Shown: positions 8,707 through 35,186 of the stretch, one piece after another | Numbering within the stretch: position 1 is the first letter of the stretch | How the letters are laid out: each line of letters begins with the position of its first letter | From: a virus | IMG/VR virus record: IMGVR_UViG_3300011126_000040 | Span: 1 to 35,368 of that record | Reading direction: 5' to 3' (one strand) | Length of the DNA stretch: 35,368 bases | The notes under the pieces: generated by a model | Seen by the model: the letters and a program-made list of their open reading frames with translations, nothing else | What the model was told of the DNA's origin: nothing | The model's database searches: none | Position numbers and translations under genes: made by a program

Positions 8707-9449
8707 TGGGAATCGGTGATGAAATCATGGCGGCTGGTCAGGCGGAACGTCTTGCCAAGCAGGCAGGCAAACCAGTTGCCATATTGGACAAAAACGGGGT
8801 TCCTCGCTGGCATGAGGTGTGGGAACGCAATCCGTATGTTGACCCAAAGTCTGATCTCACCATCACCAATGCACCCGGTGCCCGCCCATATATCCAACGG
8901 TGGGAGGGTTCAACATCTGTGTTTAACATGGACTACGTAAACCATCCGGGCAGGCTGTATCTCACCCAAGAGCATTGGGACTTTGCCAAGCAGATAGACG
9001 GACCATACATTGTTGCAGAGCCTGTTGTTCGCAGACCATCAAGCCTGAACAAAGAATGGCCTATGGCATACTGGCACCAGCTCAAGTTCCAATACCCGGT
9101 AATTCAAATGGGTGTAAAGGCAGACAAGCCAATATTGCCCGGTGCGATCTTCATTAAGACGCCAACGATATTCCATGCTGCGGCGATCATCGCCAATAGT
9201 TGTTACGTTATAACATCGGAGGGAGGCACCCATCACGTCGCGGGCGCAATGCGCAAACCAGCCATTGTTATTTACGGATCATTCACAAGTCCAAAGCTTA
9301 CAGGATACCCGAACCACGATGCTATAACCGTTGAAAAGCCTAACCATCCATGCGGTAAGTTTGACCATTGTGCAACGTGCAAAGAGGCAATGTTAGAAAT
9401 AACGCCAAAAAAAGTACAAAAAGTAATTGACACGTTCGCAACAATGTAG
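8706..9449 (+). CDS. GT9-like (heptosyltransferase-type) protein
   Basis: A 247-residue protein. It opens with GIGDEIMAAGQA (2-13), the N-terminal loop of GT9 enzymes, and ends with AAIIANSCYVITSEGGTHHVAGAMRKPAIVIYG, which follows the GT9 pattern of a threatened-to-be-conserved 'SxGxxHxAxAxxxPxxxxYG' donor-site segment. GT9 transfers heptose in LPS core synthesis. At 247 residues it is about 100 shorter than cellular enzymes, so it may be a reduced form with another donor. It starts at the last base of the FkbM stop. Confidence 0.7.
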   Translation: MGIGDEIMAAGQAERLAKQAGKPVAILDKNGVPRWHEVWERNPYVDPKSDLTITNAPGARPYIQRWEGSTSVFNMDYVNHPGRLYLTQEHWDFAKQIDGPYIVAEPVVRRPSSLNKEWPMAYWHQLKFQYPVIQMGVKADKPILPGAIFIKTPTIFHAAAIIANSCYVITSEGGTHHVAGAMRKPAIVIYGSFTSPKLTGYPNHDAITVEKPNHPCGKFDHCATCKEAMLEITPKKVQKVIDTFATM

Positions 9450-16628: not shown

Positions 16629-17020
16629 TGCGCTTTGAAGATTGGGACGTAAGGCTTTCGAACTATATCAACAAAGACCATTCATTCGACTGGCTGTCTC
16701 ATAATTGCGCGTTGTTTGCTGCTGGCGGGGTTGAATGCCAAACAGGGATTGACTTTGCCAAGGATTACAAAGGCCCGAAGACAAAGGCCGGGATGATCAA
16801 GCGCCTTAAGCGTGTCGCAGGCAATGTCGAAGACGCTGTAACCAAAGAGCTTGGGGAGCCGATCAATGTTAAGATGGCAAAGCGTGGCGATGTTGTTTCA
16901 TGTGAAACTGAGTTTGGTCTAGCACTTGGTCTTTGTGTTGGATCGAAGGCTGTGTTTTTAAATGAAGACGGGAAGGTATTCTTTCCGCTTAAGATTTGCA
17001 GAAAGGCTTGGAGGGTCTAA
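16628..17020 (+). CDS. NlpC/P60-like tail protein, DUF6950-type
   Basis: A 130-residue protein starting at ATG 16628. FDWLSHNCALFAAGGVECQTGIDFA gives a Cys in the position expected of NlpC/P60-like cysteine peptidases, and RGDVVSC begins a strand where the family's His is expected; the His itself is not obvious, so activity is uncertain. Homologues in this position are tail-tip peptidases that may open peptidoglycan on entry. One-base overlaps on both sides show tight co-translation. Confidence 0.75.
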   Translation: MRFEDWDVRLSNYINKDHSFDWLSHNCALFAAGGVECQTGIDFAKDYKGPKTKAGMIKRLKRVAGNVEDAVTKELGEPINVKMAKRGDVVSCETEFGLALGLCVGSKAVFLNEDGKVFFPLKICRKAWRV

Positions 17021-19839
17021 TGGCTCCAGTAGCAGCCGCCATAACGCTAGCTGTATTCGAAACCGGCATCGGGTTTGCCGCCGCTATCGCCATTGGTAAC
17101 GTGGTTGCCTATGGGGCATTGGCTATTGGTGCATCTGCTCTTTTGGGGGCACTTAGCAAAAAACCGAAACCAACTGCAAGCTTTTCACAAAGCCAACGTG
17201 ACAGGACTGTAACGGTTCGCGAGTCCATCAATCCGCGCCGGGTCATCTATGGCGAGGCACGGGTAGGCGGGACGTATTGTTTCATTCATACGACAGGATC
17301 AAGCAACGAATACATCCATCTTGTTATTGCGCTTGCAGGCCATCGGGTTAATCAAATCGGCACGATGTATTTTGATGGTGAAGAAGTTCCCATCGACGGG
17401 TCAGGGAATGCTACCGGGGAATATGCAGGATTTGCACGGGTTCTAAAGCGCCTTGGGACGGATGACCAAACAGCCTATCAAGAACTGATTGATGAAGCAC
17501 CGGACAAGTGGACAGAAGACCATCGTGGTCGCGGTGTTGCTCATGCATATGTGCGCTTGAAATATAGTCAGGACAAATTCCCTAACGGGGTGCCTGTGAT
17601 AACGTTCGAAGTACAGGGCAAGGATGACATCTTTGACCCGCGTGACAGTTCGACAGGCTACACAAGCAATGCTGCATTGTGCGTTGCGGATTACATCAGC
17701 AATCAGGTGTTCGGCCTTAAGTCATCCTATGGCACAGAGATACTTGAAGATGAATTAATTGCAGCAGCTAACATCTGCGATGAGCAAATCACTTTGTCAG
17801 CGGGCGGCACAGAAAACCGTTACGAGTGCAACGGCACGTTCGATATGGATTCAACGCCGTATGACATTCTAACAGGATTGTCTGGCGCGATGGCTGGCGT
17901 TGCGGTGGCGCAAGGGGACTTCTGGCAAATCCATGCAGGTGCATGGCGCACACCAGAGCTTACGCTTGATGAAGATGATTTCATCGGCACGATCACCACT
18001 CAAACACTGATTACGCGCAAAGAGAACTTTAACGGAGTTAAGGGTGTTTTCACGTCCCCGGACAATGATTGGCAAGCAACAGACTTTCCGGCTGTTCAGG
18101 TCGCGTCTTACGTCACAGCGGACAGCAACGAGGAAGTGTGGCGCGAGGTAAGCCTTGATTACACCACATCCGCAACGATGGCCCAACGTGTGGCTCGTAT
18201 TCTGCTCGAGGAGAACCGTCGGGCAATTACGGTAACGGTTCCTTGTAAAGCAGTCGCTTATCGGTTGGCACCATATGACACGGTTAAAATAAATCTATCG
18301 CGCTATGGATGGTCTGAGAAAACATTCATGGTCAAGAACCTTACACTAAGGCTTGAGGACACATGGGTCGTTGATCTTGAATTACGTGAGTTGGATGCAA
18401 ATGCTTATGCATGGACATCGGCGGATGAAGGCGACCCAATCCCGAACCCAACAACGAACTTGCCGGGCACGCAAACAGTATCAACGCCGGGTTTAACGCT
18501 TTCGGATGAAGTTGTGTTGCTTGGGTCTAGCCAACCATCGACAAACCTGATTGCCACGATCACACCAGCAACAGATGTTTTCGTTGTTGATTATGAGGTG
18601 CAATTCCGCAAAGCAAGCGAAACGGAATACAGCTTTGGCGGTCGTGGGTCAGACACAACGTATAGAATCCCGTCCGTTCAGGATGGTGTTTTGTATTATG
18701 TCCGCGCGCGATCTGTATCTGTTCTTGGTCGAAAATCTGATTGGATTGAAAAAACATATACGGTTATCGGGCAGCTTGCCGCGCCAAGCGATGTATCAAA
18801 CTTTAGTGTTTCGATAATTGACGACACGGCCTATCTAAGCTGGAACGCTGTTACTGATGTTGACCTGTCTCACTACACCATCAAATACACACCGTCCCTG
18901 TCTGGTGCGACGTGGGCAAGCTCGTCAACCCTTGTACAGCGCGTTGGCAAACCGGCAACCAGCATCACGGTCCCAGCGCTAAAGGGAACGTACCTTATTA
19001 AGGCTGTTGATTATGTTGGCATCCAAAGCGATAACGCTGCGCTGATCATAACGAACGTTGCAGGTCTAAAAGACTTCAATGCTGTAGAGGCTATCCAAGA
19101 AGACCCAACTTTCGCTGGTGAAAAGGTGCAAACGCTTGTTAATGCAGGCACGTTGCAGCTTGGTTATGATACAGACTTCTTTGGTCCTGATGACTTCTTT
19201 GGCCCTGGTGACTTCTTCTTGATGGAACGTGGTTTCTATTCGAGTGGAGAATACTATTTCGATGGAACAACTGATTTAGGTTCTGTTTACACAAGTCGTG
19301 TGACGGCATCAGTTTTGGTTGGCGCGAAGAATGATAACGCTGATTTCTTTGGTTCGGATGATTTCTTTGGGGTTGATGATTTCTTCTTAGCTGGGTCTGA
19401 AAATTGGGACAGTCAGTTGCAAATCAGGTTCACAGAAGACGACCCAAGCTCAAGCCCGGTTGAATGGTCTGATTGGTCTGACTTTGTTCTTGGTGATTAC
19501 ACAGCAAGAGCGTTCCAATTCCGCATTGTGTTAAGCGCAACAGAGTTTGGTGTAACGCCTGTGGTAAGTCAGTTGCGGGTTACAATTGATATGCCTGACA
19601 GGGTGGTCGCTGATGAGGACTTGACAGTAACCGTTAGCGGATTGTCTGTTGCGTTTACACCTGCATTCAGGGCGTTAAAGGGCTTGGCTATCAGCGGGCA
19701 AGGTTTGCAGACTGGCGACTATTATGTGATCACGAACAAAACGAATGAAGGCTTTGACGTGGCGTGGTATAATTCAAGTGACGTAGCAGTCGAAAGAACG
19801 ATGGATTACGTTGCTGCTGGATATGGGAAAATACAATGA
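17020..19839 (+). CDS. Tail tip / host specificity protein J-like
   Basis: A 939-residue tail hub. The N-terminus is hydrophobic (AITLAVFETGIGFAAAIAIG), followed by the conserved J-type region (RRVIYGEARVGGTYCFI, HLVIALAGHRVNQIGTMYFDGE) to about 480, then Fn3-like domains (about 500-690). Two acidic/aromatic blocks DFFGPDDFFGPGDFF (719-733) and DFFGSDDFFGVDDFF (775-789) each precede a jelly-roll-like segment. J-like proteins contact the host receptor. ATG 17020 is chosen because it overlaps the preceding stop and has GGAGGG upstream. Confidence 0.92.
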   Translation: MAPVAAAITLAVFETGIGFAAAIAIGNVVAYGALAIGASALLGALSKKPKPTASFSQSQRDRTVTVRESINPRRVIYGEARVGGTYCFIHTTGSSNEYIHLVIALAGHRVNQIGTMYFDGEEVPIDGSGNATGEYAGFARVLKRLGTDDQTAYQELIDEAPDKWTEDHRGRGVAHAYVRLKYSQDKFPNGVPVITFEVQGKDDIFDPRDSSTGYTSNAALCVADYISNQVFGLKSSYGTEILEDELIAAANICDEQITLSAGGTENRYECNGTFDMDSTPYDILTGLSGAMAGVAVAQGDFWQIHAGAWRTPELTLDEDDFIGTITTQTLITRKENFNGVKGVFTSPDNDWQATDFPAVQVASYVTADSNEEVWREVSLDYTTSATMAQRVARILLEENRRAITVTVPCKAVAYRLAPYDTVKINLSRYGWSEKTFMVKNLTLRLEDTWVVDLELRELDANAYAWTSADEGDPIPNPTTNLPGTQTVSTPGLTLSDEVVLLGSSQPSTNLIATITPATDVFVVDYEVQFRKASETEYSFGGRGSDTTYRIPSVQDGVLYYVRARSVSVLGRKSDWIEKTYTVIGQLAAPSDVSNFSVSIIDDTAYLSWNAVTDVDLSHYTIKYTPSLSGATWASSSTLVQRVGKPATSITVPALKGTYLIKAVDYVGIQSDNAALIITNVAGLKDFNAVEAIQEDPTFAGEKVQTLVNAGTLQLGYDTDFFGPDDFFGPGDFFLMERGFYSSGEYYFDGTTDLGSVYTSRVTASVLVGAKNDNADFFGSDDFFGVDDFFLAGSENWDSQLQIRFTEDDPSSSPVEWSDWSDFVLGDYTARAFQFRIVLSATEFGVTPVVSQLRVTIDMPDRVVADEDLTVTVSGLSVAFTPAFRALKGLAISGQGLQTGDYYVITNKTNEGFDVAWYNSSDVAVERTMDYVAAGYGKIQ

Positions 19840-22409: not shown

Positions 22410-22443
22410 CTTTGTTGCACCCCTAAAGTATAGCAGCTATACT
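22406..22443 (+). promoter_or_regulatory. Promoter with a 17-bp operator-like palindrome
   Basis: TTGACT (22406-22411), 17-base spacer, TATAGC (22429-22434). The -10 box lies inside the perfect palindrome AGTATAGC-A-GCTATACT (22427-22443), so a repressor bound there would block it. A second pair, TTGCAC/TATACT with a 17-base spacer, overlaps. GCTATACT occurs again at 22487-22494. Confidence 0.5.
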
Positions 22444-22447
22444 ATAG

Positions 22448-22469
22448 AATAGTGCATAAACGCACATAT
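22448..22469 (+). repeat. Dyad element, copy A
   Basis: One of three 22-bp copies sharing AATAGTG, central TAA and CACATAT. Its core GTGC...GCAC is centred 42.5 bp before the start expected for the -10 box TATACT at 22489, which lacks a good -35. This is the normal place for a class II activator. Confidence 0.75.
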
Positions 22470-22526
22470 AGTATTTGTTGTTTAACGCTATACTCTTAGG
22501 TGTTATTGTAACATCAGGACAAGGTA

Positions 22527-22865
22527 ATGATGGAAGTTATAATGGCATCTGAAAATGTCGCGCAAGAGATCAAAGCAATTCACAGTCGAATGGATCGTAT
22601 CGACGATGTTGTCGAGAAAATCTCAGAAGCCATCCACCAGATTTCCGTCGTGATTGAGCGCCAGAACCATTCAGAGCGTGCGCTTGCAGAGCTCAAAGCT
22701 GATATGAAGCGCGGCTTTGATAAGGTAGAAGACAAAATCAGCAAGCAGGATGAGAAGATCGAAAAGAGCAACGCCAAAATACTTTATTGGTCAGGCGGTC
22801 TTGCCACACTCGTTTTCGTGATCGGAATGGTTGTTGCTGTTATTCGTCCTTTGATCGGCGCATAA
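22527..22865 (+). CDS. Coiled-coil membrane protein, XhlA/holin-like
   Basis: A 112-residue protein with a long N-terminal coiled coil (IKAIHSRMDRIDDVVEKISEAI, EKISKQDEKIEKS) and one C-terminal membrane segment (ILYWSGGLATLVFVIGMVVAVI, about 86-107), the XhlA-type layout, likely involved in lysis or membrane function. AGGAC lies 7 bases before the ATG at 22527; ATG 22542 is an alternative. Its 3' end overlaps the leftward luxR-type gene by 26 bases. Dyad element A lies upstream. Confidence 0.75.
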   Translation: MMEVIMASENVAQEIKAIHSRMDRIDDVVEKISEAIHQISVVIERQNHSERALAELKADMKRGFDKVEDKISKQDEKIEKSNAKILYWSGGLATLVFVIGMVVAVIRPLIGA

Positions 22866-23148
22866 CCCGAACGATACGCGCCGGACGCGGTGGTCGCCGT
22901 GCTTCATCCAAATTCCCATGCATAGATACATAGCCAATCACACAAATCAAACCAGCCTTTGCCAGCTTGTAAACAGCTTCTATTGTTGTTGAGGCCCGAA
23001 GTTTGCAGCGCACTGTCGAAATGGTTTTATCAATGGCTGATCGTGAAATGCCAAGATCGAAAGCAGCCTGATCGTATGACCGGCCATGCGCAATCTTTTC
23101 AATAGCTGCCAACTGTTTTTTTGTGAATTGTGGCTTGACCTTATCCAT
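22840..23148 (-). CDS. LuxR-type HTH regulator (solo DNA-binding domain)
   Basis: A 102-residue protein. HGRSYDQAAFDLGISRSAIDKTISTVRCKL-like helix-turn-helix at about 20-50, then STTIEAVYKLAKAGLI, the closing helices of GerE/LuxR DNA-binding domains. There is no signal-binding or receiver domain: the protein is only the C-terminal half plus a basic tail (RRPPRPARIVRVMRR). It ends a leftward operon and overlaps the rightward membrane gene tail to tail. It could activate the three dyad elements; that link is inferred. Confidence 0.85.
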   Translation of the reverse strand: MDKVKPQFTKKQLAAIEKIAHGRSYDQAAFDLGISRSAIDKTISTVRCKLRASTTIEAVYKLAKAGLICVIGYVSMHGNLDEARRPPRPARIVRVMRRSKDE

Positions 23149-23191
23149 CAGAATGTTACTTTCAACTTGTTCACATCACTCACCGCTTCTG

Positions 23192-23230
23192 AACCCCCGT
23201 TACTTGTCTCTCCCTCGTAACGGGGGTTTT
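23192..23230 (+). terminator. Rightward terminator beyond the luxR-type gene
   Basis: AACCCCCGTTAC and GTAACGGGGGTT form a perfect 12-bp stem with a 13-base loop, followed by TT (23229-23230) and a T-rich tail. The T run is on the + strand, so it stops transcription coming from the membrane protein gene after it has crossed the leftward luxR-type gene antisense. Confidence 0.75.
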
Positions 23231-26644: not shown

Positions 26645-26918
26645 GGCCTATCTCCTCAAAGTTTCCAACGCGACCGCCACAACATGTTTTGCATGGCTCT
26701 TGGCATTGTTTGATTTCACGTTCCATCCCGCTGATCTTAACACCAACAGTGTCGTCTATCATGGATGACAGGTAGCCCTTGACTATCTCCATATCCTCGT
26801 CTGACAGATTGCATTCACGCGCCCACCAGAGAACATCAGACCGCATTGATTCACACTTCACACGATAACGCTCTATCTGTGTGGCAATGCCTTTAATATG
26901 CTCATCAAGGCCGCTCAT
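26586..26918 (-). CDS. Zinc-ribbon small protein
   Basis: A 110-residue protein: helical N-terminus (HIKGIATQIERYRVKCESM), then a Cys cluster (CQEPCKTCCGGR) and a closing CTEC, which together could bind zinc. ATG 26918 overlaps the upstream stop (ATGA). Likely nucleic-acid or protein binding; function unknown. Confidence 0.7.
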   Translation of the reverse strand: MSGLDEHIKGIATQIERYRVKCESMRSDVLWWARECNLSDEDMEIVKGYLSSMIDDTVGVKISGMEREIKQCQEPCKTCCGGRVGNFEEIGHDERGKPIKVSARCTECGN

Positions 26919-27082
26919 TTCTCACGCTCGTTTTCGTACTTGATAAGCGCGTCGTATAGATAACCGGGGATTTCTTCCCATTTTGTTATGGTGTGATTTT
27001 CAATTGCCCAATAGAATTTCGATCCTTCTTGATCAACGTGCAACCCGCCATAGTATCCAGTTATTTTGCCAATCTGTTCCAC
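26915..27082 (-). CDS. Small protein, duplicate copy 2
   Basis: A 55-residue protein starting at GTG 27082 behind AGGAGAG. It contains DQEGSKFYWAIENH and KWEEIPGYLYDALIKYENE, matching the next gene over much of its length. It was too short for standard gene calling. Together with copy 1 it is a tandem duplication. Confidence 0.75.
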   Translation of the reverse strand: MEQIGKITGYYGGLHVDQEGSKFYWAIENHTITKWEEIPGYLYDALIKYENEREK

Positions 27083-27092
27083 ATCAACTCTC

Positions 27093-27263
27093 CTATAGTT
27101 TCTCGCGCTCTATTTCGTATTTGATAAGTGCACCATACAAGTACCCGGGTATTTCTTCCCAGCGGCGTCCTGAATGATCTTCGATAGACCAATAGAACTT
27201 GTCGCCTTCTTGCTTAACAGTAATGAAATCGTAGTAATCCCGATTTCCTCCAATGCACATCAT
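27093..27263 (-). CDS. Small protein, duplicate copy 1
   Basis: A 56-residue protein starting at ATG 27263 (or 27260). It contains KQEGDKFYWSIEDH and RWEEIPGYLYGALIKYEIE, parallel to copy 2. TGG at fixed places and an acidic/aromatic pattern are shared. The pair lies in the same leftward operon, 10 bases apart. No function recognised. Confidence 0.75.
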   Translation of the reverse strand: MMCIGGNRDYYDFITVKQEGDKFYWSIEDHSGRRWEEIPGYLYGALIKYEIEREKL

Positions 27264-27520: not shown

Positions 27521-27548
27521 ACCATACCATACATTGCGGACGTGTCAA
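27521..27548 (-). promoter_or_regulatory. Leftward early promoter
   Basis: On the minus strand TTGACA (27548-27543), 16-base spacer, TATGGT (27526-27521), then a short leader to the ATG at 27494. The -35 box is the start of a TTGACA-CGTC-CGCAAT copy (27548-27533). Confidence 0.7.
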
Positions 27549-27571
27549 TAATTATTTATGCAAAAAAGTGT

Positions 27572-27616
27572 TTGACATACACGCAATCAATCAGCATACT
27601 TTGACACATACGCAAT
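27572..27616 (+). promoter_or_regulatory. Rightward early promoter with two operator-like copies
   Basis: TTGACA (27572-27577), 17-base spacer, CATACT (27595-27600). The repeated TTGACA-N4-CGCAAT occurs at 27572-27587 and 27601-27616; the second copy covers the transcription start. With the leftward copy there are three, all with the same 4-base gap. A Cro-like protein is encoded directly downstream. Confidence 0.7.
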
Positions 27617-27629
27617 CGAGGGTTAGCGA

Positions 27630-27830
27630 ATGAAACATAAAGAGATCATCGAAAAGTGGGGTACACCTGCTGAATTAAGTAAGGACTTGGGGCTTGGCTA
27701 CCAACAGGTGTATGGGTGGTTCCGTCGCAACAGCATCCCCACTGGATATTGGGAGCGTGTCGTAACAGCCGCCACGTTACGAGGAATTGACGGTGTTGAT
27801 TTTAATGCACTTTGGAGCGGTAAAAAGTGA
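27630..27830 (+). CDS. Cro-like HTH regulator
   Basis: A 66-residue protein. IIEKWGTPAELSKDLGLGYQQVYGWFRRNSIPTGYWERVVTAATLRGIDGV is the pattern of small Cro/CI-like phage regulators (carph-isopro type). The recognition helix is likely LGYQQVYGWFRRN. It is the first rightward early gene and should bind the operators in the divergent region. GAGGG lies 8 bases before the ATG. It overlaps the RusA gene by 4 bases. Confidence 0.85.
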   Translation: MKHKEIIEKWGTPAELSKDLGLGYQQVYGWFRRNSIPTGYWERVVTAATLRGIDGVDFNALWSGKK

Positions 27831-33232: not shown

Positions 33233-33254
33233 AATAGTGTGTAAGTACACATAT
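33233..33254 (+). repeat. Dyad element, copy B
   Basis: Second 22-bp copy. Its core GTGT...ACAC is a covarying pair relative to copy A (GTGC...GCAC). A -10-like CATGAT at 33274-33279 puts it at -42.5, as for copy A. It lies upstream of the exported-protein gene. Confidence 0.75.
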
Positions 33255-33298
33255 TGGCGATTATCAAAAGTTGCATGATCCTTATACCGGGACAACTG

Positions 33299-33314: not shown

Positions 33315-33953
33315 ATGAAAAAGCTTTTGATTGCTGGCATGTTGCTGGCATTTTCTTCACCGGCGATGGCGTTTGATTTCGGCGGTGGTAACAACGGTGG
33401 CAACAAGAACACCAACGAGAACACCAATTTGCAGGGGCAGGCGCAAGGTCAGCTACAGGCGCAGGGCCAAGCACAGGCAGCGGTTGCTATCAGTGGCGGT
33501 AATGAACAGGCAAACAGTCAGGCTGTGACCGTCCATGGCGATGAAGCACCGGACATTCCTGTTTCGTCTGCATATGCTCCGGGTCTGACTTCAAGCAACG
33601 GTTCGTGCATGGGAAGTTCGTCGGGTGGCGCTCAGGGTATGGGCTTTGGCCTTTCAATCGGGTCTACTTGGATGGACGAAGATTGTGACCGTCGATATGA
33701 CGCGAACACCCTTTCGAAGCTTGGCGCACCAGAAGCCGCGCTCGCTCTGATGTGTCAGAAAGCAGACGTTGCCGAAGCACTTAAGAAATCAAGCCCGGCA
33801 AAGTACAATGCTTACTGCGCACAGCCGGAAGTAAAAACTGCCGAAGCAAAGCAGTCCAAGCCGGTTAATGTTGCAAGCCGTGGTTGGTTCACGTCAACCG
33901 ATGGCAGCATTTGCCACAGCGAGTACAAGCCGTCTTGTGTTCGCCCTGAGTGA
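33315..33953 (+). CDS. Exported phage protein, Gln-rich
   Basis: A 212-residue protein with a signal peptide MKKLLIAGMLLAFSSPAMA (cleavage likely after AMA, residue 19). Then an Asn/Gly stretch, a Gln/Ala repeat (GQAQGQLQAQGQAQAAV, about 41-58), and the conserved block SAYAPGLTSSNGSCMGSSSGGAQGMGFGLSIGSTWMDEDCDRRYDA, seen in many phage exported proteins. C-terminal Cys residues could form disulfides in the periplasm. Preceded by dyad element B. Function unknown; an envelope role at infection or lysis is possible. Confidence 0.85.
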   Translation: MKKLLIAGMLLAFSSPAMAFDFGGGNNGGNKNTNENTNLQGQAQGQLQAQGQAQAAVAISGGNEQANSQAVTVHGDEAPDIPVSSAYAPGLTSSNGSCMGSSSGGAQGMGFGLSIGSTWMDEDCDRRYDANTLSKLGAPEAALALMCQKADVAEALKKSSPAKYNAYCAQPEVKTAEAKQSKPVNVASRGWFTSTDGSICHSEYKPSCVRPE

Positions 33954-34154: not shown

Positions 34155-34339
34155 TTTATTCGATCATGATGGTGGCATGTGTCGGGGGTGGCATTGGTGC
34201 CGTGCTGATAGGGAGTATCTATTACCTATACGCACGGCACTATTTGCATTCTTGGGACGTTGATTTCGCAATTACGATCACGTTTGCCGGGCTAGCATCG
34301 TTTGTAATCGGCGGGTTGATGGCTTTAGCGCATAAATAG
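34106..34339 (+). CDS. Two-membrane-segment small protein
   Basis: A 77-residue protein with two membrane segments: GLIYSIMMVACVGGGIGAVLIG (about 15-36) and FAITITFAGLASFVIGGLMAL (about 54-74). It overlaps the preceding gene by 49 bases in another frame. It could be a holin, antiholin or exclusion protein; there is no direct evidence. Confidence 0.65.
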   Translation: MGNKSKNSKSGFSGGLIYSIMMVACVGGGIGAVLIGSIYYLYARHYLHSWDVDFAITITFAGLASFVIGGLMALAHK

Positions 34340-34356
34340 TGTGTAAATGCACATAT
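34335..34356 (+). repeat. Dyad element, copy C
   Basis: Third 22-bp copy, with core GTGT...GCAC (one mismatched pair). A TACAAT -10 box at 34379-34384, flanked by AAGGG and CCCTT, puts it at about -45.5. It begins inside the last codons of the preceding gene. Confidence 0.75.
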
Positions 34357-34406
34357 GTTTTTCCCCATGTGTAAAGGGTACAATCCCTTAAACATGGAGG
34401 TTTATC

Positions 34407-35186
34407 ATGCATTACGGCGTTCACAAGGCCATCGAAGAAATCAAAAACTCATATGGGCATGACGTTTTTATCAAGCCTAAGCTGTTGATTAAGTTCGGGT
34501 CTGTTACGACGGTCGGGACGTCCGAAGAAACGATCATGGAAATGCCCGGTTCCGTCACCAGTGAGACATTTCAGACAGACAACACCATTGATAGTCTGGT
34601 TGTGGATGACACGTTCACAGGTGATGTGCGGATTGAAGGCCATACAATCTCTGGCGGCAATCTTACATTTGTGGTGCAATCAGCCACATGCACCAGTGAA
34701 ACACCAGTCACCCTAACAACGCCATTGGCACGGGTTACACGGGTATACAACAACAGCGCAGCAGCTATGCCAGCCAATTCGACGCTGTATATCTATCGGT
34801 CTGGCGATACGACGGTTACTGGCGGTGTGCCGCAGACTGACAGTGCTGTAAATATCATCATGAATGCAGAGAATAACCAAAGCCTCAAATGCAGCACGTC
34901 ATTTAGCCAATATGACTATGGAATATGCACAAGAATATGGGCATCAGTCGCCAAGAAAACACAAGGCGGCGCGGTTATCCGGGTCAAGATTAGGGAAATA
35001 GGGAGGCAATTCCGAACCATTCAGAAATTCGGTGTGAACAGTTTGGGCGGTAAGGTCATGCTAGACTATGACCAACCGTTAATCTTTCCAATCAACAGTG
35101 ATGTGATTATGACGGCCGAGGCCGACGCAAACGGCACAGAAGTAACAGGATCAATCGGTGTTTTCTTTGGCAAAATACCTGAATAA
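34407..35186 (+). CDS. Probable virion protein
   Basis: A 259-residue beta-rich protein. KPKLLIKFGSVTTVGTSEETIME, VRIEGHTISGGNLTFVVQSATC and VTLTTPLARVTRVYNNSAAAMPANSTLYIYRSGD are typical of a conserved phage structural family, often decorating heads or tails. A strong GGAGG lies 7-8 bases before the ATG. It follows dyad element C. Virion placement is from family resemblance, not shown here. Confidence 0.75.
   Translation: MHYGVHKAIEEIKNSYGHDVFIKPKLLIKFGSVTTVGTSEETIMEMPGSVTSETFQTDNTIDSLVVDDTFTGDVRIEGHTISGGNLTFVVQSATCTSETPVTLTTPLARVTRVYNNSAAAMPANSTLYIYRSGDTTVTGGVPQTDSAVNIIMNAENNQSLKCSTSFSQYDYGICTRIWASVAKKTQGGAVIRVKIREIGRQFRTIQKFGVNSLGGKVMLDYDQPLIFPINSDVIMTAEADANGTEVTGSIGVFFGKIPE

Follow-up and report, generated by a model that had tools for sequence, protein, structure and literature searches.

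We find that a phage genome encodes a protein that is, from the profile matches of its relatives and the fold of its model, a stand-alone LuxR/GerE-type HTH domain protein with predicted DNA binding, and that three 22-bp dyads, each preceding a rightward gene of the same genome, are real and beyond chance. That this regulator is a late activator binding the three dyads is a tentative proposal, in which our confidence falls somewhat short of even. The material analysed was the complete IMG/VR record IMGVR_UViG_3300011126_000040, 35,368 bases long and referred to in its entirety as the window.

Genome organisation and class of the regulator

The packaging and structural genes of the window occupy 206 to 22409 and point rightward. 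An early-type cluster of leftward genes, extending from 27548 down to 22840, includes those for a Rad52-like recombinase, a NinB-like protein, and an HNH endonuclease, and a rightward cluster, from 27630 to the record end, encodes a Cro-like protein, RusA-like and Lar-like proteins, and a replication protein. The regulator gene (22840..23148, minus strand), an ORF of 102 codons' worth of protein (102 aa) opening with ATG, is the final gene of the leftward cluster and meets the rightward late genes where these end. Elsewhere in the window, the minus-strand neighbours 26915-27082 and 27093-27263 are tandem duplicates that have diverged (26918-27218, 181 bp spacing), and the large tail gene 16996-19839 contains at 19156-19388 a short DFFG-type repeat of GACTTCTTTGG units with an 18-bp period. 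The left end of the record incorporates, at 65-128, an adapter with its index, which we take to be of the Illumina P7/TruSeq type, so that bases 1-128 probably arose as an artefact of assembly.

An earlier note on this DNA had described the product of 22840-23148 as a GerE/LuxR HTH with a basic tail and no signal domain, and comparisons of the family profile, of solved structures, and of folds all agree with this description. Taken alone, the window protein matches Pfam GerE below the cut-off (E=0.034, 14.2 bits against 23.5), and GerE (PF00196) is matched by all eight aligned members of its family, with a best E=3.8e-7. The family profile, searched against the PDB at E up to 1, matched 34 distinct solved sequences, nearly all of NarL/LuxR-type regulators (including VraR, DesR, RhlR, NarL, GerE, and SdiA), the exceptions being two weak matches to mitochondrial ribosomal proteins (E 0.39 and 0.46) and one to an unnamed protein (E 0.4). 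An AlphaFold model built from seven sequences has four helices (residues 10-20, 25-32, 36-50, and 55-64) with pLDDT near 90, followed by residues 73-102, mostly under 50, which the model thus presents as a disordered tail; the last 23 residues have a net charge of +4. The solved structures closest to this model are GerE, LasR, RhlR, and other LuxR/NarL-type proteins including TraR, with GerE the best match (Z 12.6, rmsd 1.1, 67 residues aligned). An HTH at residues 10-64 and a disordered tail behind it leave no room for a signal domain in 102 aa. The tail is shared with the protein of IMG/VR locus L066 (ARIVRVMRRSKDE against ARVVRVARRPKSE; overall identity 44-46%), which suggests that it has a function. 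The name "LuxR solo", also given by the earlier note, does not fit: as defined in PMC4338825, LuxR solos possess an autoinducer-binding domain besides the HTH, and the regulator lacks such an N-terminal domain.

Three dyads before rightward genes

Dyad 1 (AATAGTGCATAAACGCACATAT, 22448..22469, plus) is centred 68.5 bp before the start of 22527-22865 (plus), which encodes a small coiled-coil protein with a C-terminal hydrophobic TM-like segment. Dyad 2 (AATAGTGTGTAAGTACACATAT, 33233..33254, plus) lies 71.5 bp before 33315-33953 (plus), whose product has, by eye, a signal-peptide-like start and belongs to phrog_20531, function unassigned, and dyad 3 (AATAGTGTGTAAATGCACATAT, 34335..34356, plus) lies 61.5 bp before 34407-35186 (plus), encoding a 259-aa protein of phrog_8198, function likewise unassigned. 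All three fit AATAGTGYRTAARYRCACATAT exactly and are the sole matches in the window at up to 3 mismatches, against 0.01 expected; none of 100 shuffled sequences reached three matches, the consensus in both comparisons having been fitted to these same sites. The non-coding bases amount to 22/22, 22/22, and 17/22, and, given the gene list compiled for this analysis, about 0.7% of window positions satisfy this non-coding placement before a start. Around dyad 1, the stretch 22424-22494 contains extra TATACT/AGTATA repeats (AGTATAGCAGCTATACTATAG ... ATATAGTAT ... TATACT) that are absent at dyads 2 and 3.

The predicted -10 hexamers, which are consensus guesses on the plus strand, are TATACT (22489..22494), 22 bp past the core of dyad 1; a weak CATGAT (33274..33279), 22 bp past that of dyad 2; and TACAAT (34379..34384), 25 bp past that of dyad 3. 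The size of the dyads and their placement before three genes stand as the earlier note had them, and its centring at about -42.5 is predicted at sites 1 and 2, the third falling at -45.5, all three values depending on the guessed hexamers. The spacing of the lux box is -42.5, and this value is one bp off the CRP spacing. The note had also placed one copy next to the regulator gene, which does not hold: dyad 1 lies 370 bp past the regulator 3' end, across the convergent gene 22527-22865, and 679 bp from the regulator start, which points the opposite way. As a control site of the regulator itself, dyad 1 was rejected because it precedes the convergent gene and not the regulator promoter; it controls, if anything, 22527-22865. 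The 22-bp dyad was also absent from the regulator's own upstream region.

Searches for the 22-bp dyad in viral contigs gave none. At up to 2 mismatches, one copy occurred in 6 of 369 gammaproteobacterial genomes and two copies in none, which we estimate to be about chance level; chromosomes do not commonly carry the dyad. A de novo dyad search, at the settings used, did not list the window sites, and CRP-type dyads surfaced instead. Relatives of the 33315 and 34407 genes, sought as a check on dyad conservation, were not found.

A convergent gene pair and its relatives

The regulator gene and 22527-22865 lie tail-to-tail, with 3' ends overlapping by 26 bp. The regulator belongs to a family of single-domain HTH proteins that includes those of Vibrio phages 1.144.O, 1.137.O, 1.213.O, and P23 and of IMG/VR loci L066-L071 (33-46% identity), and in these relatives the arrangement recurs. 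The 3' overlap with a convergent small gene is 26 bp in 1.144.O, 26 bp in 1.137.O, and 24 bp in 1.213.O, the partner being annotated as a TMhelix protein in two of these and as hypothetical in the third, and it is 4 bp in L066 and 24 bp in the other five loci. The pair is present in 9/9 annotated or translated relatives where it was measured; P23 seemingly has the same pair, its second gene being unannotated. The membrane-gene products of the window and 1.144.O have no significant similarity (E=0.37), so in this comparison it is the position and layout of the pair that are conserved, without detectable sequence similarity in the partner. In L061 (29585-29674) and the matching stretch of L064, L065, and L067-L071, the paired membrane gene has a nearly invariant promoter despite differing upstream genes; the -10 of this promoter falls within a CCCCATAAT...ATTATGGGG hairpin that has a T-run just 5' of the start codon. 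This conserved Vibrio-type promoter has no likeness to the window dyad.

Beyond the regulator start, at 23191..23229, stands a terminator-like hairpin with a T-run in the rightward (plus) orientation (-21.2 kcal/mol, z -5.4), at which a separate search saw a shorter stem. Since the strong rightward hairpin lies only beyond the regulator gene, rightward transcripts should cross this gene in antisense.

The family-alignment search of viral contigs gave six loci with relatives of the regulator, and the search of the same contigs with the single sequence gave none. Nor were relatives found in genome contigs, in 369 gammaproteobacterial genomes at E up to 1e-12, or within the flanks of 22 loci of large-terminase relatives in genomes. 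The HTH was sought in 15 of 42 records with capsid relatives and found in 0/15; six of the 15, compared gene by gene, have mainly head, tail, and packaging genes in common. A scan for ACTGTGANNNNNNTCACAAA returned at least 120 stretches, and a local check for the HTH gave, among the matches listed, one, the already known G016.

CRP-type dyads in the relatives

The comparison of promoters in ten HTH-bearing relatives (G016, G017, G020, and seven Vibrio phage records) bears on what binds the window dyads. Exact TGTGA-N6-TCACA dyads occur in 10/10, with 4-11 copies each and none of the reversed pattern, and they have the GTG-N8-CAC spacing in common with the window dyads. In seven of these relatives, counting dyads with up to one mismatch, a -10-like hexamer stands exactly 21 bp off in 65/192 flanks, against 0-11 for each of the other offsets from 10 to 34, and the mean -10 score peaks at 21 bp in 6/7 and at 20 in G016. 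A dyad 21 bp from the -10 is the class II CRP layout. Seven HTH-free Vibrio phage records were also inspected: five are without a CRP-type dyad, and 1.016.O and 1.036.O, which share the leftward cluster and lack both the HTH and its partner gene, keep 3 and 4, and for all seven of these dyads a -10-like hexamer can be read, by eye, 21 bp away to one side or both. Because these two phages retain the dyads without the HTH, and because G016 differs in its recognition helix and yet has CRP-type dyads, the promoters of the relatives appear independent of the HTH, with host CRP as the simplest binder. A wider set of Vibrio-type phages (L060, L061, L064, L065, L079-L085, and records W08-W10) has between 4 and 11 exact TGTGA-N6-TCACA dyads per phage, in many cases followed at exactly 21 bp by a -10-like hexamer, and their whole early and late promoter sets look class II CRP-dependent. 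CRP-type dyads were absent from two Rhizobium phage records with an HTH-only protein and from Pseudomonas phage PotUPM1.

The window dyads might instead be bound by host CRP or a relative of the CRP family, the HTH protein doing something else; in the related phages, promoters of this lineage evidently can work through CRP-type sites. The spacing shared with CRP-type dyads, the 10/10 relatives with such dyads, the 21-bp preference in their flanks, and the persistence of dyads in 2/7 HTH-free Vibrio phages all argue for this explanation, which we nevertheless judge unlikely, though far from negligible, for the window itself. All six half-sites of its GTG-N8-CAC dyads read GTGC or GTGT, never GTGA, and exact TGTGA-N6-TCACA dyads number 0 in the window, so CRP does not readily suggest itself as the binder. 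Moreover, the predicted spacings are 22, 22, and 25 bp against 21. Relatives of the large terminase were found in Moraxella, Psychrobacter, Marinobacterium, and sphingomonads.

Other candidates for the dyads

The dyads could also be operators or promoter parts for some other, unrecognised phage protein, such as an early gene product, or they could be repressor sites. Most early genes of this phage have no known function, and a promoter-like TTGACT-17-TATAGC just upstream of dyad 1 (by eye) would place this dyad just downstream of a start site; however, by eye, no such promoter precedes dyads 2 and 3, and no further HTH protein occurs among the genes scanned, many small ORFs lying outside the scan. 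We consider this quite unlikely. The recognised regulators among the scanned window proteins are two, the GerE-like protein and the Cro-like protein, and the latter seems to have sites of its own. The promoter region of its gene (27630-27830) contains, between the divergent early clusters, three copies of TTGACANNNNCGCAA within 27534..27615 (27534, minus; 27572 and 27601, plus), unlike the late dyads in sequence; these copies have the appearance of an operator set for the Cro-like protein. The sequence occurs a fourth time at 9427, there within a gene.

Alternatively, the dyad may act as RNA, forming a GUGYRUAARYRCAC hairpin in the rightward leaders that is bound by a protein or is part of a nut-like antitermination element. 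The plus (sense) strand folds to -5.3, -5.2, and -5.7 kcal/mol, against -5.0, -4.0, and -2.2 for the minus strand, and at one pair position that varies the copies have C-G, U-A, and U-G (by eye), all of which pair in RNA, but another reads A-C in copy 1. The stems are short and fold only weakly better than shuffles (plus-strand z-scores of -2.4, -1.1, and -1.1), and no antiterminator gene was recognised in the window. We regard action as RNA as improbable; with three copies, too few for covariation, neither the RNA nor the DNA reading is strongly favoured.

That the regulator is a phage sigma factor, as suggested by its best PHROG (phrog_3282, labelled "sigma factor", E=2.6e-8) and by weak Pfam matches of the window protein and family members to sigma region 4, is already disfavoured and very improbable, because its 102 aa form a single four-helix domain, sigma region 2 was not matched by Pfam in the window protein or the eight family members, and the closest folds are GerE/LuxR.

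A possible late switch

The regulator remains the best phage-encoded candidate for the window dyads, because the Cro-like protein, the sole other recognised regulator, has distinct operator-like sites, because few chromosomes carry the dyad, and because the -42.5 predicted at two sites is the spacing of the lux box. This case is one of elimination, and our confidence in binding stays somewhat below the point of balance. The indications are mixed. The position of its gene, the two of three sites at -42.5, and the separate operator-like sites of the Cro-like protein would speak for binding; the CRP-type dyads of the ten HTH-bearing relatives and the retention of such dyads by two HTH-free ones would speak against it, as would the lack of a dyad upstream of the regulator and in the Vibrio-type membrane-gene promoter, and the 3-bp displacement of site 3. 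The family comparison does not support a regulon, which we consider a fair hypothesis.

Under this hypothesis, the single-domain GerE-like regulator would be made from the leftward early-type cluster, presumably early in infection, and would dimerise on the three GTG-N8-CAC dyads. Standing at about the position of a -35 box, the dyad-bound protein might then activate late rightward promoters serving the coiled-coil membrane gene, the secreted-protein gene, and the 34407 gene, the last promoter probably also serving the terminase operon behind. Transcription from dyad 1 would continue rightward and antisense over the regulator gene as far as the hairpin at 23191-23229, and could so help to switch the regulator off; the conservation of the convergent pair in the relatives speaks for this picture. 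Taken whole, from early expression to antisense shut-off, this explanation is the best of those considered, though we hold it as somewhat less likely than not. Its extension to the phage GerE-like family, in which pairing with a coiled-coil membrane gene would make a self-limiting late switch with lineage-specific GTG-N8-CAC dyads and antisense shut-off, is a speculation we think improbable.

If the link between regulator and dyads is true, the phage would have a signal-free LuxR-type late switch, and the conserved overlap with the membrane-protein gene would offer a simple way of asking whether transcription in antisense puts an end to regulator activity. If it is false, the case is a caution: in phages with a homologous regulator, host CRP accounts better for the conspicuous promoter dyads than the nearest phage regulator does. 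Literature searches on LuxR regulators of phages and on phage promoters of the CRP type listed no paper about late regulators that are HTH-only LuxR proteins, nor any about phage genomes full of CRP-type promoters. In Vibrio and Rhizobium phages, HTH-only proteins like this one already carry annotations as regulators.

Comparison with known systems

GerE of Bacillus subtilis (1fse), a cellular sporulation regulator, is like the window protein a LuxR-type HTH without a sensing domain and, as described above, its best structural match; it differs in having 25% identity, no comparable basic tail, and, presumably, a binding site unlike the window dyads. TraR matches the fold as well (Z 11.8 to 1l3l), and the inner 14 bp of the tra box have the GTG-N8-CAC spacing of the window dyads, but TraR is a pheromone-dependent protein of 234 aa with 12% identity over the domain.

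Among phages, the HTH proteins of the four Vibrio phages and L066-L071 are homologous to the regulator and similarly tail-to-tail with a coiled-coil membrane gene, whereas their phages carry CRP-type dyads and not the window dyad. Rhizobium phages RHEph18 and RHph_Y1_10 also bear stand-alone LuxR-type HTH proteins, annotated "LuxR family" and "putative transcriptional regulator", which differ in lacking the C-terminal tail, in their genome position, and in the absence of such dyads. Finally, the LuxR receptors of Aeromonas phages (Silpe and Bassler, PMC6456758; PMC10432266) share with the window protein a phage-borne LuxR-type DNA-binding domain. These receptors bind homoserine lactones through an N-terminal domain, which the window protein does not have, and a phage LuxR with an XRE partner is described as controlling counter-oriented genes (PMC10432266).
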